From an uncultured Bacilli bacterium (GTDB lineage: Bacteria; Bacillota_I; Bacilli_A; RF39; UBA660), in assembly GCA_947626275.1 (NCBI GenBank), contig CANQRL010000005.1, positions 1 to 64,000 of the forward strand: a DNA stretch of 64,000 nt, read 5' to 3'. Numbering within the stretch: position 1 is the stretch's first letter; each line of letters begins with the position of its first letter. The translations under genes were made by a program, and so were the position numbers. Shown piece after piece: positions 37,054 to 38,748 of the stretch. The notes under the pieces are model-generated. The model was not told where the DNA came from, ran no database searches, and saw only the letters and a program-made list of their open reading frames with translations.

Positions 37054-37082
37054 TTGAAAAATAACATTTTTTTGTGTATAAT
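37054..37082 (+). promoter_or_regulatory. Promoter of the pyrophosphatase-like gene with long leader
   Basis: -35 TTGAAA (37054-37059), 17 bp, -10 TATAAT (37077-37082). It gives a leader of about 225 nt before the ATG at 37314. Confidence 0.7.
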
Positions 37083-37100
37083 GACTTTAGAGTAGAGGTG

Positions 37101-37208
37101 ATGTATTTTAGAGGGTGTATATCTAAGATTGACAAAAAGAGCAATAAACTTGTTCTAGGACATTATTGCTATAATGTAATAGACCAATATTATTGCCATG
37201 AAAGCTAA
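37101..37208 (+). other. Possible 35-codon leader ORF inside the long 5' UTR
   Basis: An ATG at 37101 opens 35 codons of Tyr/Cys-rich peptide ending in TAA. The preceding AGAGGTG lies too close for a standard start, so translation is doubtful. The rest of the leader contains an AGCAATAA/TTATTGCT stem and a CCATG/CATGG stem. No known riboswitch class is recognised. Confidence 0.3.
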
Positions 37209-37313
37209 TAAAAGGCATGGAGTGAAAAACAAATCGCCATGATTAGATATTAACCTAAAAGAAAGAATGTTAAAAATAGGGGTAATCATATTTTAAATTA
37301 AGGAGGATGTATT

Positions 37314-37775
37314 ATGGTAGATGTTGTTATTGAAGTACCATTAAATTCAAAATTATCTTATGATGTAGTAAATAATGTACCTTATGTAAAAGAAGTGAGA
37401 TATTTTCCTCTTCCTTATCCGATAGAAAGAGGATACATTAGTAATACTATTTCAGAAGATGGAAGTCGATTAAGAGCACTTTTATTAAATTCTGAGGAGA
37501 CCATTGCTGGAGGCGTTGTACCAGCACGTGTAATTGGATATCTAGAAATGACGATTGATGGTATACCTGAAAATATGGTATTTACGGTATCTGATATTAA
37601 TCCAAAGTATAAAGGTATTGAGAATTTATCTGATGTTTCTCATTTTACTTTAAAAGAAATTACAGATTATTATTCAAACTATGGACGGATACATGATAAA
37701 AAGGTAGAAATTTTTAGATATCACTCTAAAGACGAAGCTTTAGAATTGATTAAGCAATGGGAAGATAACATGTAA
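37314..37775 (+). CDS. Inorganic pyrophosphatase-like pseudoenzyme
   Basis: 153 residues with the soluble family-I pyrophosphatase fold, closest to the real enzyme at 38263-38748. Shared: 'MVD..IE.P', 'VVPARVIGYLEM', 'LSD.S.FTL.EI..Y..NY'. Catalytic positions are lost. The metal motif DGDPLD of the paralogue is DGSRLR, the NKYEV Lys is LSYDV, YGYI is RGYI and VDVDP is SDINP. It should not hydrolyse PPi and is probably a binding or regulatory protein. RBS AGGAGG. A 225-nt leader suggests regulated expression. It ends in a bidirectional terminator. Confidence 0.85.
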   Translation: MVDVVIEVPLNSKLSYDVVNNVPYVKEVRYFPLPYPIERGYISNTISEDGSRLRALLLNSEETIAGGVVPARVIGYLEMTIDGIPENMVFTVSDINPKYKGIENLSDVSHFTLKEITDYYSNYGRIHDKKVEIFRYHSKDEALELIKQWEDNM

Positions 37776-37806
37776 AAAAAGAAGTTCATCTAGGACTTCT
37801 TTTTTA
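37774..37806. terminator. Bidirectional terminator
   Basis: Stem AAAAAAGAAGT/ACTTCTTTTTT, between convergent genes ending at 37775 and 37790. Confidence 0.82.
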
Positions 37807-38176
37807 GTTCCAATAATAATAATTGATATTCTCCTTGTAACCGTTGATAACGGTTTAATAACTCATTAGATATTCCAATCGTGCGCATATCTTTTTCCAT
37901 TAGTAAAAGTTGAACGAGAGTAGATAAAATGGTATGTCCATTCGATGCATGAATCAATTTATCATAGTCAGCAAACAATTCTTTTTCTTGATATTTTTTA
38001 TCTTGCATGTATTCCCATAAAGCACTGGTATATCCATCCGCTTCCATAAAAGCATCTAGGGGCGTTAAAGTAGTTGCTAAAAAAGCAAAATATTCTAACC
38101 GTGAAAGAGGAAGAAGATGGGTATTTTCTTCTTTTTTGGTTTCACTAATAGGAATCAATTCAATTTCAAAATTCAT
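37790..38176 (-). CDS. Hypothetical protein, 128 aa
   Basis: Small soluble, mostly helical protein with 'LPLSRLEYFAFLATTLTPLDAFMEADGY' in the first half and a helical C-terminus ending in Lys residues. No motif recognised. It is flanked by the pyrophosphatase paralogues and divergent from the active one. RBS GGTGAT. Confidence 0.65.
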   Translation of the reverse strand: MNFEIELIPISETKKEENTHLLPLSRLEYFAFLATTLTPLDAFMEADGYTSALWEYMQDKKYQEKELFADYDKLIHASNGHTILSTLVQLLLMEKDMRTIGISNELLNRYQRLQGEYQLLLLELKKKS

Positions 38177-38262
38177 ACTATCACCAATTTAATGATAACA
38201 CAAAATAGATGGAAAAACCATGCATTTTAGTGTATAATGAAAGTAATATTAGGAGGTAAAAC

Positions 38263-38748
38263 ATGGTAGATGCAATTATTGAGATACCAGTAGGTACTAG
38301 AAATAAATATGAGGTAGATAAAAAAAGAGGAGTGGTTAGACTAGATAGGGTATTATACTCAGCGATGACCTATCCAGCCGAATATGGGTATATTGGAGAC
38401 ACTTTAGCAGGAGATGGGGATCCTTTAGATATCCTAGTTATCAGTACTGAACCATCTTTTCCTGGTTGTGTAGTGCCAGCTAGGGTTATTGGCTATTTAG
38501 AGATGTATGATAACGGTAAGGAAGACTATAAAATTATTTCTGTAGTCGATGTTGATCCTCGATATAAGGAAGTAGAATCGTTAAGTGATTTATCCAATTT
38601 TACACTACAAGAAATTCAAAACTTTTTTGAAAATTATAAAGTATTACAAGGAATTGATGTTACCGTAAAAGGATATCACGGAAAAGAAGATGCTCTCGCA
38701 GTCATTGAGGAGAGTAAAAGAAACTACCAAGAAAAAAGCCAACACTAA
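38263..38748 (+). CDS. ppa: Inorganic pyrophosphatase (family I)
   Basis: 161 residues. Motifs of active soluble PPases are intact: 'VGTRNKYEV' (Lys and Glu contacts), 'LDRVLYSAMTYPAEYGYIGDTL' and 'DGDPLDILV' with the three metal-binding Asp residues, then 'VVDVDPRYK' and the C-terminal 'YHGKEDA' contact. The enzyme removes PPi from biosynthesis. RBS AGGAGG. Nearest relative in the window is the degenerate copy at 37314, roughly 40% identical by eye. Confidence 0.93.
   Translation: MVDAIIEIPVGTRNKYEVDKKRGVVRLDRVLYSAMTYPAEYGYIGDTLAGDGDPLDILVISTEPSFPGCVVPARVIGYLEMYDNGKEDYKIISVVDVDPRYKEVESLSDLSNFTLQEIQNFFENYKVLQGIDVTVKGYHGKEDALAVIEESKRNYQEKSQH

Follow-up and report, generated by a model that had tools for sequence, protein, structure and literature searches.

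Pyrophosphatases are treated as housekeeping enzymes, and their homologues are all taken to be enzymes. The quaternary structure of family I is a homohexamer made up of two trimers. In another enzyme family, deoxyhypusine synthase, a catalytically dead paralogue reportedly activates its partner. The consulted parts of PMC5201418 and PMC10211241 describe dead paralogues which regulate live ones in other families, and the former presents the trypanosome AdoMetDC prozyme as a dead paralogue activating its partner. As regards assembly, PMC6770254 cites a work (its reference 41) whose title says that replacement of His-136 or His-140 by Gln splits the hexamer of the E. coli enzyme into trimers. Pseudoenzymes are a known kind of protein; within family I pyrophosphatases, no earlier report of one was recognised by a word search of the full text of open-access papers, and neither “inactive” nor “paralog” occurs in the body of a 2024 review on microbial pyrophosphatases (PMC11210485).

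The window analysed here is a stretch of 64,000 nucleotides from an uncultured member of the Bacilli (contig CANQRL010000005.1), whose 1.4-Mb, 92.6% complete assembly is referred to as G000. Two PF00719 genes were found in this assembly. The first is an open reading frame of 153 amino acids on the forward strand (37314–37775), labelled PSI, which begins with ATG and is described below, on the basis of homology, residue alignment, selection, phylogeny and modelling, as a catalytically dead family I pyrophosphatase paralogue. The second is ppa (38263–38748, forward strand), an intact family I inorganic pyrophosphatase of 161 amino acids (PF00719 E 7.7e-55) with all 14 active-site residues. As an earlier note on this DNA had stated, the PSI frame is unbroken, the motifs quoted from it, LSDVSHFTL included, are present, and an intact ppa lies about 0.5 kb downstream. 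The gap measures 487 bp (37776–38262) and contains, on the opposite strand, a gene of 128 amino acids which that note had passed over.

Homology of PSI to family I pyrophosphatases extends over the whole domain. The PF00719 match (E 2.6e-23) covers profile positions 1–150 of 153 and scores 83 bits against a cut-off of 23.5; at 3.5 times Pfam's cut-off, a Pfam-based annotation would label PSI an enzyme. PSI is 40% identical to the product of ppa over 154 columns (E 4e-40). A search of PDB sequences gave 37 distinct sequences at E ≤ 0.001, which are pyrophosphatases by name or, for 3i4q (labelled APC40078), by title. The AlphaFold2 (AF2) model of PSI has a pLDDT of 69.4, with residues 1–35 poorly predicted. 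The ppa product modelled likewise reaches 69.0 with a nearly identical weak region, so the weakness of the PSI model is attributable to a shallow alignment. Compared with solved family I structures, as the earlier note had proposed, the model gives Z scores of 16–18 and rmsd values mostly of 2.3–3.2 over about 135 residues, and the barrel fold of the family is predicted to be kept. Homology and modelled structure make PSI a genuine member of the family I pyrophosphatases in both ancestry and fold.

The residues of the active site were compared in an alignment of three PSI proteins, five ppa products of the genus, 29 from other genera of the family and E. coli Ppa, leaving out one short homologue (L010) and excluding L011–L013 as duplicates of other loci. 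Thirty-four paralogues served as the active enzymes for comparison. Fourteen active-site positions were listed in the numbering of E. coli Ppa, and all of them are kept in 34/34 active enzymes. The consulted part of PMC6770254, which deals with the A. baumannii pyrophosphatase, names 11 of the 14, numbered one higher. Eight of these 11 metal or pyrophosphate residues are replaced in all three PSIs, namely, K29, R43, Y55, D67, D70, D97, K104, and K142. With the species given in the order G000, G008, G009, the metal ligands of the active enzyme (D65, D67, D70, D97, and D102) appear in PSI as a conserved D65, S/S/Q, R/R/K, I/V/M, and E/E/D. Its phosphate ligands (K29, R43, Y55, K104, Y141, and K142) appear as S/S/T, E, R, M/M/R, a conserved Y141, and G, while E31 reads D/D/K. 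E20, Y51, D65, and Y141 are unchanged in the three copies. More generally, 34 columns are invariant across the active enzymes; all three PSIs depart from 15 of these and retain 12. Two of the replaced residues are lysines whose mutation kills the Acinetobacter enzyme; indeed, according to the same part of PMC6770254, K30R and K143R (E. coli K29 and K142) nearly abolish its activity.

Both sides of the active site are, as read from the alignment, dismantled, with metal ligands turned neutral or basic and phosphate ligands mostly neutral or acidic. PSI is thus an enzyme homologue that lacks almost every residue required for catalysis, and it is very probably incapable of hydrolysing PPi. The earlier note had claimed that the Asp triad, the active-site Lys and the Tyr are all replaced. 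This applies to the lysines (K29, K104, and K142), to D67 and D70 and to Y55; since D65 is retained in 3/3 copies together with Y51 and Y141, “all” is too strong. The retained E20, Y51, D65, and Y141, with an acidic residue at 102, would fit a weak or changed hydrolase which attacks another substrate through D65, E/D102, E20, and new basic residues. This is very unlikely, as the metal ligands D67, D70, and D97 and every lysine named in the consulted part of PMC6770254 are replaced, and a basic residue at position 70 opposes a metal there.

All three species in which PSI was found carry it intact (3/3). The dN/dS values (NG86) are 0.19 for G000-G008, 0.27 for G000-G009, and 0.33 for G008-G009, which indicates purifying selection, with the caveat that synonymous sites are near saturation. 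In a likelihood comparison under the GY codon model, whose branch lengths are saturated, fixing dN/dS to 1 lowers lnL from −1210.5 to −1300.5, 90 log units worse. Differences at codon positions 1/2/3 between G008 and G009 (0.29/0.16/0.43) follow a coding pattern. Neutral evolution was simulated 5000 times with third-position divergence set to its observed level; no run stayed free of stops, and protein identity reached 40% at most, the observed value being 64.5%. Divergence is uneven along the gene: nucleotides 1–120 (37314–37433) are 92–93% identical between G000 and G008, and later segments 63–92%, most of them 63–82%, which suggests recombination or uneven constraint.

A decaying pseudogene which happens to be still unbroken would be consistent with the lack of PSI in 9/12 genomes of the genus, a distribution that the earlier note would have read as decay. 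No broken copy, however, was seen at the site in the PSI-less genomes or elsewhere in the searched genomes of the genus, and the dN/dS values, the likelihood gain of 90 units over neutrality, the failure of all neutral simulations to stay stop-free, and the conservation of promoter and ribosome site in three species make decay extremely improbable. The step from “unbroken” to “under selection” did not follow from a single sequence; it is the comparison of relatives, proposed in the same note, that bears it out. PSI is preserved by purifying selection in three sister species, as far as codon comparison can tell, and the pseudoenzyme proposed there is upheld by the loss of ligands, the retained fold, selection in the three species, and a history of duplication followed by neofunctionalisation.

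That history emerges from the distribution of the gene. PF00719 genes occur in 5 of the 12 genomes of the genus, and PSI in three of them (G000, G008, and G009), where the gene order is the same: an HD phosphohydrolase gene, a CmpB-like gene (reverse strand), PSI, the small orphan gene (reverse strand), and ppa. PSI was found solely beside ppa (3/3). In G002 and G003, ppa and the small orphan gene are present without PSI, and the locus leaves no room for it; in the remaining seven genomes the HD gene is present and ppa was not found. The lack of room in G002 and G003 and of any broken copy points to a lineage-specific gain of PSI. As these metagenome-assembled genomes are 79–95% complete, gene absences are not proof. 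In G009, an unrelated ORF of 991 amino acids (L080, 7684–10659) separates the CmpB-like gene from PSI. A third, short PF00719 protein of about 108–114 amino acids occurs away from the ppa locus in G008 (L009, C8:63546–63791) and G009 (L010, C6:41423–41659) and was not found in G000. L009 matches the middle of the profile only; R43, Y51, Y55, D65, D70, D102, and K104 align as kept in it, and D67 is E.

Outside the genus, no PSI was recognised by score among 193 genomes of the family, 385 of the order, and 395 of the class, sets which overlap, and none was found in viral contigs. The order and class searches were judged by score alone (PSI itself 314 bits; the next best, 148, was the ppa product of the same genome), so that an independently dead paralogue among further matches might be missed, and G008 and G009 are not among their matched genomes, which leaves these searches with no second true positive. 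In a tree of 38 proteins, PSI is monophyletic (100/100) and groups with the ppa products of the genus (89/89). The PSI stem measures 2.05 changes per column, and the tips 0.07–0.4. Most simply, going by tree and synteny, PSI is a tandem duplicate of ppa born within the genus. A single clade with a long stem and slow change thereafter is the pattern of duplication, rapid change, and settling, that is, of neofunctionalisation.

G000 encodes, by domain search, a family II pyrophosphatase with CBS, DRTGG, DHH, and DHHA2 domains. DHHA2 was detected in 11/12 genomes of the genus, the one miss being G009, which is 79% complete, and a membrane pyrophosphatase in 0/12. The main, housekeeping removal of PPi in the genus is therefore probably, as gene content indicates, the task of the CBS-type family II enzyme encoded elsewhere. 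Since ppa was not found in 7/12 genomes, Ppa would be an accessory enzyme, and its duplicate may for this reason be free to change. The orphan gene between PSI and ppa (37790–38176, reverse strand) is not part of PSI and adjoins ppa in 5/5 genomes of the genus that have it. It gave no confident family match, and no counterpart was seen at 29 ppa loci of other genera or at the HD loci of the seven genomes of the genus in which ppa was not found. A functional partnership between this gene and ppa is possible.

Where constraint lies in PSI gives some hint of its job. The uninterrupted invariant runs of at least six residues are 29–36 (RYFPLPYP), 69–79 (VPARVIGYLEM), and 107–120 (DVSHFTLKEITDYY). 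The last is the longest (14/14; column-shuffle P 0.012) and overlaps the start of a helix placed by the model at residues 110–126, which carries E. coli position 136. On this interface helix, PSI differs from the ppa products of the genus by the fixed changes N136D, F137Y, and F138Y. The latter have Asn, not His, at 136 and 140, so the interface chemistry of the E. coli enzyme need not apply. Invariant columns make up 7/14 of the active site and 79/138 of the rest; the active site is no more conserved than the remainder.

These data bear on a role in the old pocket. PSI could be a sensor or storage protein, independent of Ppa, which binds an anion or a nucleotide in a remodelled, metal-free pocket. 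All PSIs share R29, Y30, F31, P32, L33, P34, Y35, P36, E38, R39, and G40, and the pocket wall is conserved in its new state, with D70 turned into R/R/K and Y55 into R. On the other hand, active-site columns show no excess of conservation, and R43E puts an acid at a phosphate position. The basic ligands K29, R43, K104, and K142 are lost, except that K104 is R in the G009 copy, so PPi is an unlikely ligand and the binding of PPi entertained in the earlier note is weakened. Taken together, a ligand-binding role of this kind is unlikely. As active-site columns are not specially conserved and the 107–120 run sits at the helix, constraint moderately favours a role of the oligomer surface over one of the old pocket.

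An oligomer surface may also serve other ends. PSI could be a purely structural or scaffolding homo-oligomer, or bind a protein other than Ppa, and leave both Ppa and PPi unaffected. Such a role would fit the position of the two longest invariant runs (strand 69–79 and helix 107–120) outside the listed active-site residues, and the divergence of the interface helix from ppa at fixed positions. It is nonetheless rather unlikely, because adjacency to ppa and the shared interface residues point to Ppa as the partner and no other partner gene is linked to PSI in all three species beyond neighbours which relatives share.

The putative signals around the two genes concern their expression. Upstream of PSI lies a predicted sigma-A-like promoter (TTGAAA-17-TATAAT, 37054–37082, forward strand) with 11/12 consensus bases and with −35 and −10 elements alike in the three species; the promoter scan as a whole gave five sites against a shuffle mean of 8.8, with no excess over shuffles. 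By alignment and folding, the leader is about 230 nt long (37083–37313, forward strand), ends with the ribosome site AAGGAGG (37300–37306), and contains a near-palindromic hairpin (approximately 37141–37196) whose sequence is common to the three species. Downstream of PSI, between convergent genes, lies an A/T-rich perfect hairpin (37775–37805, no strand assigned) with a 13-bp stem and −13.3 kcal/mol. A similar one is present in G009, and the 25-nt stretch of G008 that was folded has none. A terminator scan which requires G-C pairs listed nothing there. On its sequence and position, the hairpin may be a two-way terminator, and PSI would then probably be transcribed as a single gene. The predicted promoter of ppa (TGGAAA-17-TATAAT, 38210–38238, forward strand) has 10/12 consensus bases and a −10 element alike in three species. 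With separate promoters and a hairpin between them, PSI and ppa seem to be separately controlled.

A riboswitch was considered for the leader, and no Rfam family reached the gathering score; the best weak match, to a family of animal microRNAs on the opposite strand (E 0.003), reflects the hairpin alone. A regulon sharing the hairpin was also considered. In five genomes, exact matches to the left-arm pattern are confined to the PSI upstream regions of G000 and G008. Allowing one mismatch recovers the PSI upstream region of G009 as well, plus a single additional locus in G008; the totals equal those of the reversed control, and the regulon was discarded. In G008, the hairpin stretch resembles part of a ttcA-type gene (GHHFDDVIET motif), and the match contains a stop. 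As good a resemblance was obtained in 0/300 shuffles for G008, 22/300 for G000, and 58/300 for G009, the palindrome making both strands resemble ttcA. The hairpin may be a regulatory RNA, a protein site, or a ttcA-like gene remnant, support for the remnant being confined to G008. As for PF01171, only a longer, TilS-size gene is present in G000, while G002, G003, G008, and G009 also have one of ttcA size; its lack in G000 may reflect loss or an assembly gap.

PSI probably does a different, non-catalytic job. The reading put forward here is that PSI is a non-catalytic subunit which works with Ppa and changes its activity, assembly, or stability; on present sequence evidence this is a real possibility, though one that falls short of probable. 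PSI would be a neofunctionalised, non-catalytic duplicate of ppa whose function resides in the protein itself and its oligomer surface rather than in catalysis. It would enter or cap Ppa trimers or hexamers, and its entry would alter the activity, assembly, or stability of a secondary pyrophosphatase in a prozyme-like manner. As PSI has a promoter of its own, the cell could adjust the PSI:Ppa ratio. Ppa is the most obvious partner because PSI adjoins ppa and shares interface residues with it, and the invariant run at the helix with position 136 gives a hint of an interface. Several observations count against a partnership with Ppa. The fixed N136D, F137Y, and F138Y might signify that PSI forms a homo-oligomer apart from Ppa; PSI is preceded by its own promoter and seemingly is not co-transcribed with ppa; tandem duplication would by itself account for its being found only beside ppa; and ppa without PSI in G002 and G003 implies that Ppa does not generally need it. 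Three species are too few for an analysis of co-evolution.

If a selected dead paralogue of this kind is confirmed, it would mean either a new control over pyrophosphate or the reuse of the fold for another job. The narrow distribution in three known species restricts its reach. The live and dead genes lie 0.5 kb from each other and arose recently, so direct biochemistry could retrace how an enzyme became a pseudoenzyme. In its full form, the proposal makes PSI a dedicated, separately expressed regulatory subunit, and Ppa the first case in bacteria of a pyrophosphatase whose control relies on hexamers that combine dead with live paralogues. The arrangement would have evolved in a single genus of gut Bacilli already equipped with a CBS-type family II enzyme; this form is somewhat doubtful and is offered tentatively.

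Compared with the known systems, PSI shares homology, the predicted fold, its strands and helices, and the residues E20, Y51, D65, and Y141 with family I pyrophosphatases (PF00719) such as E. coli Ppa, A. baumannii AbPPase, and H. pylori Ppa (1ygz). It differs from them in the replacement of most of the named residues, and binding of Mg-PPi and hydrolysis are, from its sequence, not expected. The CBS-DRTGG family II pyrophosphatase (DHH-DHHA2) present in G000 catalyses the same reaction as family I enzymes, but it has an unrelated fold, is not homologous to PSI, and any regulation would occur within one chain. Parallels in mode of action are the AdoMetDC prozyme and the deoxyhypusine synthase paralogue. 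Like PSI, they are selected duplicates without catalytic residues alongside an active oligomeric paralogue; they belong to other families, and the partner binding shown for them is proposed for PSI.
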